The translations under genes and the position numbers were made by a program. Of a DNA stretch of 41,797 nt, positions 4,870-12,657 are shown piece after piece. Numbering within the stretch: position 1 is the first letter of the stretch; each line of letters starts with the position of its first letter. The notes beneath the pieces were generated by a model. That model searched no databases and had not been told where the DNA came from. It worked only from the letters and a program-made list of their open reading frames with translations. Origin of the DNA: a virus; IMG/VR virus record IMGVR_UViG_3300042922_001458, positions 1 to 41,797 of that record; one strand, 5' to 3'.

Positions 4870-6336
4870 TTATCCGAAGTGCAACTTTCGATGGCAGTTC
4901 GGACACAGCGCGACGGCATTTTCAACGGTGTCATCGCCGCCGTCTGCTAGTCTGACTTTGTGGTGCACTTCAAGATATGGCTCATTCTTCGCCCGACTGA
5001 TGAAGGGCGCGGGCTCCTTGCATTCTTCGCAATGGCCTTGCGCACGTTCCAGCACCTCCACAATTACGTCAGCGTTGCGTATAAAGGCCGTAGCACGAAC
5101 AACGACACGAGGCGGCTTTTTAGGTGCAGCTTCTAGCCGTGCCAATCTATCAGTGCGGGAGCTTGCGAGGGCTGTTGCCACCCGTCCGTTAAGTTCGTTT
5201 TCCAAGAAGCCTAGCTCCGCCACAACTTCCGTTGGTTGTGAGTCGCAGAGCGCAAGTTCAAACCATCGAGAACCATCGGGTTCAGCGTGGTGGCCTGCAT
5301 AAGCGAAGGTCCCTTGGTAAGTGAAGGGTGTCGAATCCGAGGATCGGACGAACGTCAAGATCGGGATGCTCGGATTTTGGAGAATGGCCGCGTTGGCCTT
5401 GAAGTGTTCGCCAAACTCTTGCTTGCCGTTTCGCGTGATGGCCTTGAAGTAGTACTTCAGACGACGTGAGGGTTCGAGCCATTCGTTAGCATAGGCGCCA
5501 CCACTGAGCGTCGCCTTGATGACCACAAGCGCCGGAGTGCCGGCTGACGGTAGGACGAACATTCCTCCTGCGCGGGTATCGTAGTTCTTCGTGAAAATGA
5601 GGATGTCGTATGGCGAGTACGGCTCACCGATGACGAAGTCGCTGGGGCGAGTGCAATCATTGAGCCAAGGCTGAAAGCGCTCGGCAAATTCGGCCTTGAT
5701 GTCTTCAAACGTCAGGAGCTCGCACGCCTTCATTCCGAGGTAGATGGGATCCTTCTCGTCTTCGCTAAACCGCTGCAAATAGTTGAACAGGTCTCCTACG
5801 CGCTTGAATTTTTGGAGCCATATATCGGAGTGTTTAACCTTATCTTTGAGCTCAGAACCTAGCCTGGTACTGCTTAACGCTGGGCGTTGCACGCGCTCCA
5901 TGATGAACTCGCGTGCAGCCTCGATGCCAGACAGCTCCGTTGGCTCTGACCGAAGAGCGCGTTCGGCCAGAGCAATGGGTTTATGCCGAGCCGTGGCAAT
6001 CAGGTGGGCCAGCTCTGGGGCGATCGTATAGCCCCTAACATTGCGGCCTCCATGCAACGATAAAGACCCTTCCATCGACGGCAATTCGTCATCCGTTCGG
6101 ACGCGAAGCCGATAGCCTTCGATAACCACTCCACGAATCACTTCCTCGATCGTCTTTACAAATAGCGAGCGACGAGCTTCGCCACTCCCCGTGCGAAGGA
6201 CAAAATGACCTTTGCCGGCACCCGTAGTCGCTAAGTAGGGATAGCGTGCGCGTCCAGCGCTATCAATTATGGCGAAGCGTTTGTCCGAATTCACTGAGAA
6301 TCCTAATTGCTCGTGTAACAAGGCTGCCATTTTCAA
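4870..6336 (-). CDS. HNH endonuclease with SRA-like region (type IV restriction-like)
   Basis: 488 aa from a TTG; an ATG two codons on (6330) is an equally good start, and neither has a clear Shine-Dalgarno. The last 55 residues form an HNH/McrA-type nuclease: CEEC, then LEVHHKVRLADGGDDTVENA, then CPNCHRKLH, giving a four-Cys zinc site and the HH..N..H catalytic core. The middle (about 230-370) resembles the SRA-like domain of ScoMcrA-type enzymes (FKANAAILQN, PILTFVRS, FTYQGTFAY), which reads modified bases. The N-terminal 200 residues are not recognised. Likely a modification-dependent DNA endonuclease, i.e. defence or inter-phage competition cargo. Base composition is visibly less G+C-rich than the structural genes, consistent with separate acquisition. 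Confidence 0.85.
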   Translation of the reverse strand: MKMAALLHEQLGFSVNSDKRFAIIDSAGRARYPYLATTGAGKGHFVLRTGSGEARRSLFVKTIEEVIRGVVIEGYRLRVRTDDELPSMEGSLSLHGGRNVRGYTIAPELAHLIATARHKPIALAERALRSEPTELSGIEAAREFIMERVQRPALSSTRLGSELKDKVKHSDIWLQKFKRVGDLFNYLQRFSEDEKDPIYLGMKACELLTFEDIKAEFAERFQPWLNDCTRPSDFVIGEPYSPYDILIFTKNYDTRAGGMFVLPSAGTPALVVIKATLSGGAYANEWLEPSRRLKYYFKAITRNGKQEFGEHFKANAAILQNPSIPILTFVRSSDSTPFTYQGTFAYAGHHAEPDGSRWFELALCDSQPTEVVAELGFLENELNGRVATALASSRTDRLARLEAAPKKPPRVVVRATAFIRNADVIVEVLERAQGHCEECKEPAPFISRAKNEPYLEVHHKVRLADGGDDTVENAVALCPNCHRKLHFG

Positions 6337-6818: not shown

Positions 6819-7715
6819 CTACGCATCTGGATGTGTTATCCCACGGAGCATACGCTGGACTTCCGAAGCAGGCTGCGAGGTCTGCTTTTTAAACTCTTTG
6901 TAAAGGCCGTGTTTGAAAGCCATATCTACAATTCGGAAACGCGCTTCTTCTGGAGGGGATAAGTAGCGCGGTAGGACGTCCTCCTGCATTTTTAGACCAG
7001 CGTGAGCCACTCGATGTAGGCGCAACAGAAATCCGACCAAGCTGTCTTCGCCCCATCCCTCGAAGAACCAGCCATGCTGATTCGGGTAGCCTGCAACGTT
7101 CCATGGGTTCAAGGTCTTGTCGATAAAGTTCGAGAAAACGCCAACGTCATGCACGACGATGAAATCGGCTTGATCTAGTGGGTCGACTCCCCGCGATTCG
7201 TAGAACTCCAGAATTTCGAAGCCAGTCTCAATAGGGGCAGCTTTGCACTGCATGGAAAAAACGCCAAATGGCACCCGCTTGGCCCATTCGCCCAATATGC
7301 CGAATTCATGAATCATGGCCGTCGACGCACGTCGCAGCTTCTTTACTGACAAGCCTTGTTCAAGAGCTCGGTGTAGCTCTGCTTTGTCGGCAATATTAGG
7401 CTTTACCTCTACAACCGAATCGACGCCTTCAGCAAGCAGCAAGTTGTACTTGCCGCTCGCACTCACCGTGTAAGGATGGCTAGGTGCACAAATCACGCAA
7501 TCGATCGACGCGGCGATATTTCCTAATGAGTCGCGTACTTTTCCTTTCGCAATCCGATGTGGGAATGGGAAATAACGACCTACGAACGCTTGGACCGCGT
7601 TCTCGCGAAACTCGGCGATCTCTTGGGATGTGCCTCGGCCCTGTATTGACGCCTTTCGGAATTCGCTTGAAAGTTGCAGAGCTTCTTCACGCAGCAAACT
7701 GTATAAGTCATTCAT
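6819..7715 (-). CDS. DUF6602-type protein with PD-(D/E)xK-like core
   Basis: 298 aa from the ATG at 7715; longer frames to 7856 start in leader sequence without an RBS. The N-terminal helical part contains Glu35/Glu38. Then come the strand-like stretches ASIDCVI (Asp72) and VDSVVEVKPN (Glu103, Lys105), i.e. the D...ExK pattern of the restriction-endonuclease fold seen in DUF6602 proteins. The C-terminal half is helical and unrecognised. Nuclease activity is an inference from these residues. It is the first gene after the operator-overlapping leftward promoter, separated from it by a leader of about 340 nt, and the HNH gene follows on the same strand, so the two are probably expressed together when the repressor is removed. 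Confidence 0.75.
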   Translation of the reverse strand: MNDLYSLLREEALQLSSEFRKASIQGRGTSQEIAEFRENAVQAFVGRYFPFPHRIAKGKVRDSLGNIAASIDCVICAPSHPYTVSASGKYNLLLAEGVDSVVEVKPNIADKAELHRALEQGLSVKKLRRASTAMIHEFGILGEWAKRVPFGVFSMQCKAAPIETGFEILEFYESRGVDPLDQADFIVVHDVGVFSNFIDKTLNPWNVAGYPNQHGWFFEGWGEDSLVGFLLRLHRVAHAGLKMQEDVLPRYLSPPEEARFRIVDMAFKHGLYKEFKKQTSQPASEVQRMLRGITHPDA

Positions 7716-7994
7716 GTGTGATCGCCTAAGGTCGAGCCGGTAGCTCGTCTGGGTCATGGTAATCGACGGCGGTTGGCCTAGCGCGTTAGGGGGCATTTGT
7801 CTGCGTCCTGTCACGGCGCAGGCAGATGAAATCTGGGGCAGCGCTCCCCTGGCCACTCCCGCTCATCGCGGCTCCGGGTGGGGCGCTGCCTCTTCAACCA
7901 AGCCGCGTTCTATAGCTCCACTCCCGGAGCCAGGCGCGACCTGGTAGCCGTCGATCTTTGGTCAGGGGTAACGGGTTGAGCCCTGGGCCTAGCC

Positions 7995-8006
7995 GCGCTT
8001 TCGCGC
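7995..8006 (-). promoter_or_regulatory. boxB-like hairpin (GNRA loop)
   Basis: On the leftward RNA the sequence GCGC-GAAA-GCGC forms a perfect 4-bp stem capped by a GAAA tetraloop, 27 nt downstream of the boxA match. Lambda-type boxB elements are small stems with GNRA-like loops bound by N proteins, but no N homologue is recognisable here. Confidence 0.45.
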
Positions 8007-8033
8007 CATCGGCCTGTTCTATCTCTGTGCTGG

Positions 8034-8045
8034 TTGTTAAAGAGC
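8034..8045 (-). promoter_or_regulatory. boxA element in leftward leader
   Basis: Leftward RNA reads GCTCTTTAACAA, identical to the core of the rRNA-operon boxA that binds NusB/S10. It lies about 10-20 nt after the predicted transcription start. Position immediately after an early promoter matches the nut sites of lambdoid phages. Confidence 0.6.
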
Positions 8046-8062
8046 GGTGCTGCGTTAAAAGA

Positions 8063-8091
8063 ATAGTAGCAATCGCTACGCTTTGATGCAA
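8063..8091 (-). promoter_or_regulatory. Putative leftward early promoter (pL-like)
   Basis: On the minus strand, TTGCAT (8091-8086) and TACTAT (8068-8063) are separated by exactly 17 bp. The first operator palindrome (8066-8079) lies in the spacer and -10, and the second (8091-8104) abuts the -35. Expected start near 8056, reading toward the DUF6602, HNH, ParB and int genes. Hexamer matches are 3/6 and 4/6, so the call rests on geometry and the operator overlap. Confidence 0.55.
8066..8079. promoter_or_regulatory. Operator-like palindrome OL1
   Basis: Perfect palindrome GTAGC-AATC-GCTAC inside the leftward promoter. The same half-sites recur at 11052-11065 and 11090-11103 between the repressor and the Cro-like gene, which identifies it as a likely repressor operator. 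Confidence 0.7.
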
Positions 8092-8104
8092 TAGCAAATG
8101 CTAC
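8091..8104. promoter_or_regulatory. Operator-like palindrome OL2
   Basis: ATAGC-AAAT-GCTAC, one mismatch from the perfect operator. Its centre lies 25 bp from that of OL1, and it abuts the -35 of the leftward promoter. Confidence 0.65.
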
Positions 8105-8122
8105 GCTTATTTGTAACGGACG

Positions 8123-8147
8123 AAAAAAAGCCCGCTCGAGGCGGGCT
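8123..8147 (-). terminator. Intrinsic terminator of the repressor operon
   Basis: On the minus strand: 7-bp stem AGCCCGC / GCGGGCT with a CTCGA-type 5-nt loop, followed by seven T residues. It lies just after the 265-aa gene and just before the leftward promoter, so it would end transcripts of the repressor operon and insulate the early operon from them. Confidence 0.9.
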
Positions 8148-8168
8148 GCAACTTTGATGGCGTGCGGG

Positions 8169-8966
8169 TCAGCTGGGCATTCGCACCCCGGCCTCTTTGA
8201 GTCGACGGGCGGCTTCATCCAACTTCCAAGAGAAATCCTTCTGAGCCGTGACCCTGTTCACGGCTTTCATACAAACCGCTCCCGGGGAGGTGCATTCGGC
8301 GGGCTTCAGCGAGGCCGCAATAGCGACTACAACCGACGCCATCTTGGCAGCGGTTTCGTCCGTACCAGCACCAGAAAGGAGAAGGTCGAGGCGACGGACC
8401 AATTTTTTGGACTCTCGTTCTGCCACTGTCTCGGCAGGGAGGCAATCCTTTAGCATGGCCGTGCCCATGATCGACCCATTGCCCAGACATACAAGGCGTA
8501 CAAGTTGCCCCTTCTTTGTGTTCGCCGCGAAATTCAAGGCTTCGTCGGCGATATGCGCCTGGGGCGCGTTGATTCCTGGGCCCATGACAAAGTAGGGCGC
8601 ATCGCCGATACCGGAGCCAATGCGCTCCACCTTTCCTGTCACGAAAAGGGTCTTACGTTTAAAGTCTCTATCACCCGCCACTTCGTTTGCGCGGTAGGCT
8701 TTAGCCAGATCGTTGCTCGAGATCTGTTTGACTCCTAACTCATCGGTGATGAGAGCTCGTGCGCCGCCCGAAAAGCTCTCCACATCATTTGCGATCAGCG
8801 TGGAAAGGAGGTTGTATTCTTGTGCCGAAAGCTGGTACTTGTGCGATTTTCCCGCGGAGAACTCACTAATTTGACGCTCTTGGGCATGGGCCGAAGCCAT
8901 GGCGAATGCCGCACTTGAGATTGCAACGACCATTAGCAGCCTAGAACCTACGAAAGTGAATGACAC
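8169..8966 (-). CDS. Exported OB-fold (tRNA_anti-like) protein
   Basis: 265 aa from a GTG with GGAG 5 nt upstream. The N-terminus is a Sec signal peptide: hydrophobic run RLLMVVAISSAAFAMASAHA with cleavage near AHA-Q. Residues of about 85-170 match the tRNA_anti-like OB-fold found in small exported proteins (LAKAYRANEVAGDRDFKRKT, LFVTGKVERI, LVRLVCLGN). The C-terminal 70 residues are helical with a Cys pair (AECTS, AVCMK). Last gene of the operon that begins with the repressor, so probably expressed in the lysogen and acting in the periplasm. A role in superinfection exclusion or host-surface change is possible but not shown. Confidence 0.8.
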   Translation of the reverse strand: MSFTFVGSRLLMVVAISSAAFAMASAHAQERQISEFSAGKSHKYQLSAQEYNLLSTLIANDVESFSGGARALITDELGVKQISSNDLAKAYRANEVAGDRDFKRKTLFVTGKVERIGSGIGDAPYFVMGPGINAPQAHIADEALNFAANTKKGQLVRLVCLGNGSIMGTAMLKDCLPAETVAERESKKLVRRLDLLLSGAGTDETAAKMASVVVAIAASLKPAECTSPGAVCMKAVNRVTAQKDFSWKLDEAARRLKEAGVRMPS

Positions 8967-9032
8967 AAGTTCTCCAGATCATCTTTAGGGCTTCATCGCA
9001 GCCGCGGAGCTTATGGTGTTCGCCTCTACGGG

Positions 9033-9437
9033 CTATGAGGTCACGGCAGCGTGGTGCTCGGTAACCATTTCAACCAAATGTACGTCGAGCGAGCTGAGGC
9101 GTAAGTTGTTGAATTCACGCTGCATCGCTATCTCTTTTAGGACTTCACCTAAGCAGACCATCATTGCGAGTTCTGTGCTTCGGCTTTGTATCTGGGCCAT
9201 CGCGTTGGCCCCTGATGAAAATGCGCAACCCGCGAGCACGAATTTGTTGGGCAACGTTCTATTCGGTCCAAACCATTGAGGATTGCGGTCCCAAGTGATG
9301 CCCACAAGTTTGTTGGCGAGTTCGGCGGGGCTGGCGCCAAGATCCGAATGCCGTGCGCATTCCTCAAGTAAATTTTGCACGAGCACCGCAGCCTGGGCCT
9401 TTCTGGCCGTCGCGCGTATTCCAAAAAAAAGCGTCAT
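9033..9437 (-). CDS. Hypothetical lysogenic-operon protein, 134 aa
   Basis: Not recognised. The ATG at 9437 has a consensus GGAGGT 6 nt upstream and is chosen over a GTG at 9491 without an RBS. The protein is helical, with segments such as ARKAQAAVLVQNLLEECARH and MAQIQSRSTELAMMVCLGEV. No signal peptide is evident, so it is probably cytoplasmic. It sits between two exported-protein genes downstream of the repressor. Confidence 0.75.
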   Translation of the reverse strand: MTLFFGIRATARKAQAAVLVQNLLEECARHSDLGASPAELANKLVGITWDRNPQWFGPNRTLPNKFVLAGCAFSSGANAMAQIQSRSTELAMMVCLGEVLKEIAMQREFNNLRLSSLDVHLVEMVTEHHAAVTS

Positions 9438-9500
9438 CGACGCACCTCCGCCTTTAGTGAAGCCGATCTGAGAGATGAGCACTTCCGCCACGGCTGATCG

Positions 9501-9980
9501 TTAATTAACCGATATTTTGCACCGGCTGTGGAATGTTCCTCCGACCGCGGCTTCACCCGGAAATCCTCTGCCATGTCGAGAGGCCATCAGCACGCCGGAT
9601 GCAGGATAAATCGAATAAATCCAAAACGAGCCGTCCAATGGTGTGACGAAGGTCAGAAAGCTAGGAAGGTTATTGACGACAACTGCCTTGTACCTTTCTA
9701 ACGCGCCACCAGCGGACTTCGAACTCTGCGTAGTAACGTCTCCGACCGCTGGGATCGACTCATTCCAGTAGAACGTCCATGTTGCGTTCTTAAACCCGTC
9801 TTTTTGTTCAACGGGCGTATCTTGGGATTCAGGGTAACGAAACTGCATCCCATAGGGCTCGGCGCATTGGGCTATCAATTCAGAAGCGTTTGCGTCCGAT
9901 CCGAGTGCACACGCCATGAGAAGGGCCCGGGCGAATAGCTTCGCCCTATTGCAAGACGCGGACCTTAGGAGCGAATCCAC
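9501..9980 (-). CDS. Exported hypothetical protein directly after the repressor
   Basis: 159 aa from a GTG with GAGG 7 nt upstream; the gene overlaps the repressor 3' end by 16 nt, so it is co-translated with it. The N-terminus is basic, then hydrophobic (KLFARALLMACALGSDANAS), a signal peptide with probable cleavage after ANA. The mature part is beta-rich and aromatic (ATWTFYWNES, GSFWIYSIYP) with a few Cys, consistent with a periplasmic fold. No family recognised. The operon position suggests expression in lysogens. Confidence 0.78.
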   Translation of the reverse strand: MDSLLRSASCNRAKLFARALLMACALGSDANASELIAQCAEPYGMQFRYPESQDTPVEQKDGFKNATWTFYWNESIPAVGDVTTQSSKSAGGALERYKAVVVNNLPSFLTFVTPLDGSFWIYSIYPASGVLMASRHGRGFPGEAAVGGTFHSRCKISVN

Positions 9981-11041
9981 TGCCCAGCCTCATCATCACG
10001 CAGTTTGGCGCCAGCCCATACAACCTGACCCAGTACGCGCACCGGCGTGCCGTTTTCGAGGGGTATGTCGTAGTAGGCCGGGTTAAAGGAACGCGCGACC
10101 CAGCGCCCCGTCAGCTTGTCTCGTGTCACGGTCTTGACCAGCATTTTGCCGTCATAGTTGATGGCATACACTCCGCCGGCGGCTACGTCCTGCAGCGTGA
10201 GATTCTCGTTGGGGACGACGAGTAGGGCGGCGCCGTCACGAATGACCGGTTCCATGCTGTCGCCCTTGGCATACACCACGCGTGCCTTCCCATTGTCCGC
10301 GCCTACTGCCTTCAGGAACGATCGACGGAACTGGATCATGCCCGTCTGGTCTTCGCTATGGTTCTCAATGCCGTCGCCGGCGGCCAGGCGCACCTCGGCC
10401 AGCTCTGGCACTTTCTCGAACCTGTCATTGGCGGCGTGCGGCTCGCCCGGCCCGGCGTTCGCCGTGACACCGGTCTGAGTGCTGATCCTGATCTTCGGAT
10501 TACGCTCGGCTTCGAATGTCGTGGTGCCACCTTCCCAAGGCGCTGGCGGCAGGCCCGCTATGCGCATCGGGAATGGATCGTCGGCATGGTCCATATCCAC
10601 CAGCCCGCCGGGCTTATGGGCGCGTAGCGGGATGACCACCCCGGCCGGCGGCGAGGGGGGAGGTGAGACGTTCAAGCCGATCTTCAGCTGTGCGATGGCA
10701 AGCGCAAGTGCACCCTCGAGTGCGGTGAGCTGACCAGCGGGCAGGGCGCGCACGTCGGCGGCCGCAATGGTCTTAAAAGGCCAGTCGCTATCGTCAGGTA
10801 CAGGCGCGGCTGGCGCCTCGACGCCCTCCACATCGAACCAGCCTTTCATGCCGGGCATGGCCTCGATGGCCCAGATGGTCTTTTCCGTAACGGGTCGAAT
10901 ACCCGAAAGCATCTGACGAACGAATGCCCCGTCCTTGTAGCCGAGTCGGCGTCCAAAGTCGGTCTTGTTCCCTTTCGATACGTGGTCCACGGCGGCCGAC
11001 AAACGGCCCATCCTGAACTCGTTTAGCTCAACCTCATTCAT
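9965..11041 (-). CDS. cI: CI-like phage repressor, S24 peptidase family
   Basis: 358 aa from the ATG at 11041; the longer frame from 11131 would run through the operators. The N-terminal HTH lies at about residues 20-60 (GNKTDFGRRLGYKDGAFVRQ). A long Pro-rich linker follows, then a LexA/S24 domain with nucleophile Ser262 (KGDSMEPVI) and Lys303 (MLVKTV). A plausible self-cleavage Ala-Gly pair is A221-G222 (LAAGDG), about 40 residues before the serine. It should repress early transcription and be inactivated by RecA-stimulated autocleavage. Operators lie directly upstream. No Shine-Dalgarno precedes the start, and a weak -10 (TACTGT) lies 7 nt upstream, so the mRNA may be leaderless as for lambda cI from pRM. 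Confidence 0.93.
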   Translation of the reverse strand: MNEVELNEFRMGRLSAAVDHVSKGNKTDFGRRLGYKDGAFVRQMLSGIRPVTEKTIWAIEAMPGMKGWFDVEGVEAPAAPVPDDSDWPFKTIAAADVRALPAGQLTALEGALALAIAQLKIGLNVSPPPSPPAGVVIPLRAHKPGGLVDMDHADDPFPMRIAGLPPAPWEGGTTTFEAERNPKIRISTQTGVTANAGPGEPHAANDRFEKVPELAEVRLAAGDGIENHSEDQTGMIQFRRSFLKAVGADNGKARVVYAKGDSMEPVIRDGAALLVVPNENLTLQDVAAGGVYAINYDGKMLVKTVTRDKLTGRWVARSFNPAYYDIPLENGTPVRVLGQVVWAGAKLRDDEAGQWIRS

Positions 11042-11051
11042 GCGCGGGACA

Positions 11052-11065
11052 GTAGCATGCGCTAC
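11052..11065. promoter_or_regulatory. Operator-like palindrome OR3 (repressor-proximal)
   Basis: Perfect palindrome GTAGC-ATGC-GCTAC, 10 bp upstream of the repressor start and overlapping its putative -10. Occupation here would block repressor transcription. Confidence 0.7.
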
Positions 11066-11066
11066 G

Positions 11067-11080
11067 GGTGCATTTGCTAC
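11067..11080. promoter_or_regulatory. Operator-like half-palindrome OR2
   Basis: GGTGC-ATTT-GCTAC: one perfect half-site and one degenerate half-site. Its centre lies 15 bp from that of OR3. Likely a weaker site in the three-operator immunity region. Confidence 0.5.
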
Positions 11081-11109
11081 TTGCGAAACGTAGCAAACGC
11101 TACTAGTAT
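11081..11109 (+). promoter_or_regulatory. Putative rightward early promoter (pR)
   Basis: TTGCGA (11081-11086) and TAGTAT (11104-11109) with a 17-bp spacer that contains the perfect operator at 11090-11103. The layout mirrors the leftward promoter. A start 7 nt after the -10 would be the A of the Cro-like ATG at 11116. Confidence 0.65.
11090..11103. promoter_or_regulatory. Operator-like palindrome OR1
   Basis: Perfect palindrome GTAGC-AAAC-GCTAC filling the spacer of the rightward promoter, as the first leftward operator does at the leftward promoter. Confidence 0.72.
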
Positions 11110-11115
11110 TCGCGT

Positions 11116-11379
11116 ATGGACCTGAACTCATACCTGTCTTCCCCTGGCGCTCTCAGCGTGGCGCAGTTGCGCGCCCGCATGGTCGAGCTCGGATACGACG
11201 TCAAGAACGACGCGCAGATACGACAGTGGCGCACTCGCTACAAGGGTCGGCTGCCTTCGCCGGAAAACTGCATGGGTCTCGAATTGGCTTCTGGCGGACT
11301 CATGCGGCGCCAGGATCTTCGTCCCGAAGACTTCTGGCGTACCTGGCCGGAGTTGGCCGAAGAGGCGAGGGCGGCATGA
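11116..11379 (+). CDS. cro: Cro-like (YdaS-type) HTH regulator
   Basis: 87 aa, divergent from the repressor and first gene after the rightward promoter. Residues of about 10-65 form a Cro/YdaS-type HTH: GALSVAQLRARMVELGYD, AQIRQWRTRY, then GRLPSPENCMGLELASGG, and a conserved RPEDFWRTWPEL tail. It should bind the same operators and favour lytic growth. No Shine-Dalgarno is present, and the promoter places the start at or next to the ATG, so translation may be leaderless. Its stop overlaps the start of a 21-aa frame (ATGA). Confidence 0.85.
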   Translation: MDLNSYLSSPGALSVAQLRARMVELGYDVKNDAQIRQWRTRYKGRLPSPENCMGLELASGGLMRRQDLRPEDFWRTWPELAEEARAA

Positions 11380-12129: not shown

Positions 12130-12657
12130 ATGACCCATCGCTACACCCAGATTGACCCGCATGACGCCCTGTACATCAGCGTGCAGAAGACGCCCGGGGG
12201 CGTCGAGGAACTGGCCGCATTCATGACGAACCGTCGCGGCGTCTCGATGCACGCGGAGACGCTGCGCCAGAAGCTACGTAAGGTGAAGGGCCAATCCATG
12301 TCCCTGGACCTGTTCGAACTCGCCACCGAGTGGATGCTCGAGAAGCAGGGCGGGGCGGACTACGCGCGGGATTGGCTGCTGGCCCTGGCGCTGCGTCACG
12401 GCGTGGCGGCCAACATCCTTCCGCCGGCGCCGCATCACGCGAATGAGGTTGACGCCGCCCGCCAGAAAGTCATGGAAATGTCGCACCTCAACGGCGAGTT
12501 GTCGGCCGTGGCGATCGAGGCATTGGCCGATGGCGCCATTTGTGCGGCTGACGCGTCGGCCATCGTGACCGAATGCCGCAAGATCGTGGAAAAGGCTCAA
12601 CGCTTGATGCGCAACGTCCAGCGGGCAGCAGGCGACAAGGCGAGGGCGGGATGCTGA
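12130..12657 (+). CDS. Phage regulatory protein, CII family (CP76-type)
   Basis: 175 aa. The first 60 residues match the Phage_CP76/CII-family N-terminus: PHDALYISVQKTPGGVEELA, then HAETLRQKLRKVKGQ, a DNA-binding HTH. The middle is a conserved helical region (LFELATEWMLEKQGG) and the C-terminus a long helix. In related phages this protein acts as an early transcription regulator influencing lysogeny or replication genes. Second regulator of the rightward operon; its last codons overlap the next start. Confidence 0.85.
   Translation: MTHRYTQIDPHDALYISVQKTPGGVEELAAFMTNRRGVSMHAETLRQKLRKVKGQSMSLDLFELATEWMLEKQGGADYARDWLLALALRHGVAANILPPAPHHANEVDAARQKVMEMSHLNGELSAVAIEALADGAICAADASAIVTECRKIVEKAQRLMRNVQRAAGDKARAGC

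Follow-up and report, generated by a model that had tools for sequence, protein, structure and literature searches.

A predicted lambda-type immunity switch with matched, type-specific operators at two distant early promoters in a phage family of Achromobacter and Bordetella

The phage DNA described here (an IMG/VR virus record of 41,797 nucleotides, referred to below as the window) very probably contains a lambda-type switch with two operator clusters, in which a self-cleavable CI repressor would bind the palindrome GTAGC-N4-GCTAC through its N-terminal domain (NTD). Copies of this word occupy defined positions in two early promoters, the promoter geometry and the sites are conserved in relatives, and in homologous loci the NTD and both operator clusters differ in a matched fashion.

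The perfect palindrome occurs three times in the 41,797 bases, at 8066, 11052 and 11090, always at one of the two early promoters; the initial annotation had reported the same three positions, and the window holds no others. One hundred dinucleotide shuffles yielded a mean of 0.01 perfect matches, so that the word is not equally common elsewhere, and pattern search of three whole host genomes returned one or two perfect sites each outside the prophage. The two imperfect copies reported earlier were found as well, with one mismatch at 8091 and two at 11067. Over the whole window, matches with up to two mismatches amount to 23 against 14.5 expected, which is a mild enrichment only; therefore, these two weak sites rest on position and conservation and not on the count. 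Sites of their quality, taken alone, are expected by chance somewhere in the window, and this is the point in favour of regarding the motif as chance palindromes of the A+T-richer intergenic region, although both sites are kept in position in relatives. Such a chance origin, to which we assign a practically negligible probability, was rejected, as none of the 100 shuffles reached three perfect sites and 21 relatives that share the NTD have the sites where the window has them.

The right-hand cluster, OR, is placed over the divergent promoters PR and PRM and consists of three operators (plus strand) between cI and cro: OR3 (11052-11065), which is perfect and overlaps the predicted PRM -10; OR2 (11067-11080), which has one consensus half-site, kept in nearly all group A loci; and OR1 (11090-11103), which is perfect and fills the PR spacer. 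PR itself (11081-11109, plus strand), identified by sequence and conservation, has the hexamers TTGCGA (11081-11086) and TAGTAT (11104-11109) separated by 17 bp, and two operators abut these hexamers. The predicted PRM -10 (TACTGT, 11049-11054, minus strand) is extended by TGC and lies 7 nt before the cI ATG. Neighbouring operators are spaced by 23 bp at OR, 15 bp between OR2 and OR3, and 25 bp at OL. The distance from the PRM -10 to the cI ATG is 6-7 nt in all 22 loci of the window's type, and that from the PR -10 to the cro ATG is 6 nt in the window and about 6 nt in nearly all of the 22. As both -10 boxes are so near the start codons, the cI and cro transcripts are predicted to be leaderless and should start at, or within 1-2 bases of, the start codon. 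A strict consensus promoter scan reported no promoter here, the -35 boxes being weak; hence, the promoters are argued from geometry and conservation. PR is followed by a Cro-like gene (11116-11379, plus strand; phrog_35, with a weak YdaS match) and, downstream of cro, by a gene for a CII-like activator (12130-12657, plus strand; phrog_101 and Phage_CP76, PF06892).

The left-hand cluster, OL, has two operators on the minus strand, against three at OR (with OR2 half-consensus), and no third OL site was seen. OL1 (8066-8079) is perfect, fills the spacer of the promoter PL and supplies the first three bases of its -10, while OL2 (8091-8104) has one mismatch, its odd last base being the first T of the PL -35. 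PL (8063-8091, minus strand) is composed of TTGCAT (8091-8086), a 17-bp spacer and TACTAT (8068-8063) with an extended -10 (TGC), and it is conserved in relatives. The imperfection of the 8091 site is explained by the mismatched base, which is the T that the PL -35 needs, and the same compromise was found in loci of other types, whose operator words are unrelated and whose OL2 extends into a TTGAC -35. The initial annotation had assigned the sites exactly to the spacer and -35 zones of the promoters. The hexamers are as it gave them; however, the 8066-8079 site extends into the -10 by 3 bp, and the 8091-8104 site shares the first T of the -35 but overlaps this box no further.

The predicted PL transcript contains, some 10 nt from its start, a boxA-like element, CGCTCTTTAACAA (8034-8046, minus strand). 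It is a near-perfect boxA of the rrn type, present in a single copy in the window and found after PL in more than 40 relatives of many immunity types. The boxA is followed by a hairpin with compensatory changes, and the whole structured leader RNA (7823-8053, minus strand; about 230 nt) is shared across phages, 20 of its 47 predicted pairs showing compensatory change; loci of other immunity types have it in common from 8053 on. A search of Rfam with the leader gave a chance snoRNA match only, no boxA was found on PR, and no N gene was identified. Downstream of PL the leader takes several unrelated forms (judged by eye), each associated with several NTD types; the presence of unrelated leaders after the same boxA suggests several antitermination or regulatory RNAs.

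The cI gene (9965-11041, minus strand) encodes a protein of 358 aa with an NTD (about 10784-11041), a conserved WPF hinge and an S24 C-terminal domain (CTD). The CTD contains an AG cleavage site, Ser262 and Lys303, and has PF00717 and PHROG repressor matches. The AG site and the catalytic Ser/Lys are kept in most NTD types, which makes RecA-dependent induction likely. The AlphaFold model of CI is of low overall confidence (pLDDT 60.7, pTM 0.34), with a helical NTD at pLDDT 72-80; an N-terminal HTH is suggested by this helical model together with weak matches. A Foldseek search with the model matched the CTD to the C-terminal domains of LexA and lambda CI, while a sequence search of PDB with CI returned nothing. 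Full-length CI was not found in cultured phages, the best matches being Bordetella avium phages IFTN1-8, which have only the hinge and CTD in common with it.

As had been proposed, the cI operon lies between the two clusters: it runs leftward from cI and ends at an intrinsic terminator (8129-8147, minus strand) just before OL. Between cI and OL it contains three accessory genes or ORFs, all on the minus strand: one adjoining cI (9501-9980) and one at 9033-9491, both with no family match, and a gene (8169-8966) that weakly matches a Sie-like superinfection-exclusion family. The first gene of the PL operon (6819-7715, minus strand) encodes a DUF6602 protein of the PD-(D/E)xK/NucC-like nuclease kind, and another of the first genes of this operon (4870-6336, minus strand) appears to encode an HNH enzyme resembling type IV restriction enzymes; both look like defence-type nucleases. 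The integrase gene is located at the left end of the window.

In the switch reconstructed from these features, the NTD of CI would bind the palindrome GTAGC-N4-GCTAC. CI at OR (11052, 11067 and 11090) would cover PR, turning off cro, cII and the replication genes, and would also regulate its own promoter PRM, from which the cI operon with its accessory genes would be transcribed leftward to the terminator before OL. CI at OL (8066 and 8091) would cover PL, the putative driver of the leftward operon down to int, and cleavage of CI after DNA damage would lead to induction. Binding, repression, autoregulation and cleavage-dependent induction are predictions. Looping between OL and OR through the CTD of CI is plausible, given a CTD of the lambda/LexA type and at least two operators per cluster.

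Searches with CI yielded 80 viral and 30 genome loci, with relatives in Achromobacter and Bordetella genomes. The NTD of the window's CI is shared by 21 loci. OR1 and OR3 are perfect in all 21 and flank the OR2 half-site at a distance of 38 bp from each other (39 bp in one locus), and the OL pair is present in 17 of the 18 loci with enough flanking sequence, always with a spacing of 25 bp and at 1.6 to 4.7 kb from OR3. The word is kept at OL across a range of 52-97% CI identity. The locus L085 of Bordetella pseudohinzii has an intact OR, with neither OL nor a boxA within 7 kb; it is possibly a decayed prophage or has a rearranged PL. A related word, TAGC-N4-GCTA, was observed at both OR and OL of a distant prophage in another bacterial class (Marichromatium gracile, L110; positions 5552, 5603, 7540 and 7565), where the OL pair is also 25 bp apart and OL2 is fused to a TTGACT -35.

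Besides the window's NTD, 14 further NTD types were found on homologues with the common hinge and CTD, the C-terminal regions being up to 91% identical. For example, the NTD of the L013 protein is 22% identical to that of the window's CI and the remainder 91%; the reverse is seen in L101 and L102 (NTD 78% and 67%, respectively; rest 46-47%). The GTAGC site is absent from OR in the loci of all 14 other types. Instead, these loci have palindromes of their own at similar OR positions, and OL has a matching palindrome in all of these types but one (13 of 14); among the words are TTAGGC-N3-GCCTAA, AATCGC-N4-GCGATT, TTTAGT-N4-ACTAAA, TTGAATC-N2-GATTCAA, TAGCAA-N4-TTGCTA and ATAACC-N2-GGTTAT. When nine palindromes were tabulated against the 15 NTD types, the table was cleanly diagonal at OR, where no palindrome matched upstream of the cI of another type, and nearly diagonal downstream of cI. 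The OL match is strong in nine or ten types (A-G, J, K, M) and weak in the rest. Type I mostly has a single OL site, type K has OL in only some loci, the OL evidence is weaker for types N, O and Lx, and type H yielded no OL partner. When words of the OR1 region were compared, independently of any motif, with own and foreign downstream DNA, the outcome agreed overall but was weak for types A and G; the p-value of this comparison treats related loci as independent, and the palindrome-by-NTD table is the better test. In three of the other types (C, I and Lx), the start codon of cI lies inside the operator closest to that gene (site from about -7 to +8; e.g., 5781-5795 in L014), and autoregulation in these types would accordingly be built differently.

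The earlier suggestion that one CI controls both early operons is strongly supported by this comparison, namely by the fixed OR positions and the 25-bp OL pair (17/18) in same-NTD loci, and by the replacement of the GTAGC sites by other matching palindromes in loci with other NTDs. An alternative is that OL serves Cro or another regulator as operator and that CI acts at OR only. Cro differs between types along with the CI NTD, so a match to the NTD type is equally a match to the Cro type, and as the two proteins are swapped together, CI sites and Cro sites are inseparable by sequence; in lambda, CI and Cro share all operator sites. Still, the words at OL and OR are identical within a type and the pair spacing is fixed, as in lambda, while OL1 lies in the -10 and spacer of an early promoter that a lysogen must keep off. 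We consider a role of OL for such a regulator alone very unlikely, and retain CI as the probable ligand of both clusters.

Alignments with loci of other types delimit the DNA that differs. Similarity is lost from about 11356, in the 3' part of cro, to about 10784, at the WPF hinge; it returns over the CTD and disappears again across OL and the accessory genes; several loci regain it at 8053, some 10 bp beyond the PL -10. In the CTD tree (a quick tree with many weak forks), closely related CTDs are combined with as many as eight NTD types, and the tree requires 40 or more changes of type. As judged from these alignments, NTD-OR-Cro and OL-PL are two separate blocks that differ together, and the DNA between them is shared or shuffled. 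These observations bear on the possibility that OL and OR match by descent, the whole immunity region being inherited as one block, and not for reasons of function. Lambdoid immunity regions are generally exchanged as units, which counts for such descent, but here the DNA between the clusters is not co-inherited with them, as the mixture of NTD types within CTD clades indicates; moreover, the cI-OL slot is hypervariable, the leader is common across types from 8053 on, and the OL word is retained over the full span of CI divergence given above. Descent as a single block is accordingly regarded as unlikely. OL tracks the NTD though its flanks come from different sources, and we read this as selection for one repressor at both ends, a reading that does not tell CI from the co-exchanged Cro.

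Our somewhat favoured reading is that new immunity specificities spread by paired replacement of the segment from the 5' part of cro through OR to the CI NTD (about 10784-11356) and of OL-PL (about 8054-8125), in which case selection would have kept or restored the OL match, beyond mere inheritance. In the same reading, and with a similarly slight preference, the CTD, the accessory genes and the PL leader would be shuffled independently, resulting in about 14 non-matching repressor/operator sets on one body. The OL-OR distance is free to vary; thus, looping, if any, would not require a fixed phase. From the cI stop to OL, the distance ranges from 46 to 3607 bp in 71 loci, and this slot contains 69 clusters of ORFs, a part of these ORFs probably not representing genes. 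Inspection by eye suggested OLD-like ATPase, Fic-like and kinase-like ORFs in the slot (e.g., in L010, L034 and L101). The hypervariable slot may be a hotspot of defence or exclusion genes that lysogens express.

To gain a new immunity specificity, a phage has to alter its repressor and all of its operators at the same time, and how this is achieved has long been asked. The present family is a natural library for this question, with one conserved oligomerisation and cleavage domain, about 15 unrelated DNA-binding domains and readable operator words. It permits direct tests of immunity groups, of OL essentiality and, with OL and OR naturally some 1.1 to 4.7 kb apart, of looping; it may serve as a source of orthogonal repressor/operator pairs and predicts which Achromobacter and Bordetella prophages exclude one another. 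Searches of the open-access literature found no account of such a switch for phages of Bordetella or Achromobacter. Within that literature, the many interchangeable specificities with a matching distant OL, the predicted leaderless cI and cro, and the leader with an rrn-type boxA are new.

The architecture itself is that of lambda (NC_001416) and is already known. The two phages have in common the order PL-OL-(exclusion genes)-cI-OR-cro, a LexA-type CI and a boxA after PL, and even the register is the same: the lambda operators OL2 and OR2 have the TTG of the -35 as their last bases, and for OL1 and OR1 these are the GATA of the -10, the pair spacing being 24 bp, compared to 23 bp (OR) and 25 bp (OL) in the window's phage. 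On the other hand, the operator word of 14 bp is unrelated to the 17-bp word of lambda, the operators number 3+2 and not 3+3, and OR2 and OR3 are spaced by 15 and not 23 bp. Three operators per cluster are a trait of lambda itself and not of all lambdoid switches. The cI transcript of lambda is leaderless, whereas lambda cro has a Shine-Dalgarno leader, unlike the predicted leaderless cro of the window's phage. The latter also differs in its rrn-like boxA with a long structured leader, in having no identified N gene, and in a YdaS-like Cro.

Other lambdoid repressors, such as those of HK022 and phiKO2, act at OL and OR over other distances, about 700 bp in HK022, and an engineered hybrid repressor with the lambda NTD and the 186 CTD still works at OL and OR (PMC8053113). 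In comparison to this hybrid, the window's family consists of natural NTD/CTD recombinants of many types, with matched OL cassettes. Many CI types were also described in related Stx prophages, with specificities suggested to be adapted to distinct targets; in the parts of that study available to us, unlike in the window's family, no operators were identified and no matched change of OL and OR was presented (PMC8951638). In Cluster A mycobacteriophages, the repressor and scattered stoperators vary together and set immunity groups (PMC6550527); there, each genome has 20-30 asymmetric stoperators and the change is gradual, whereas the specificities of the window's family differ by domain replacement.
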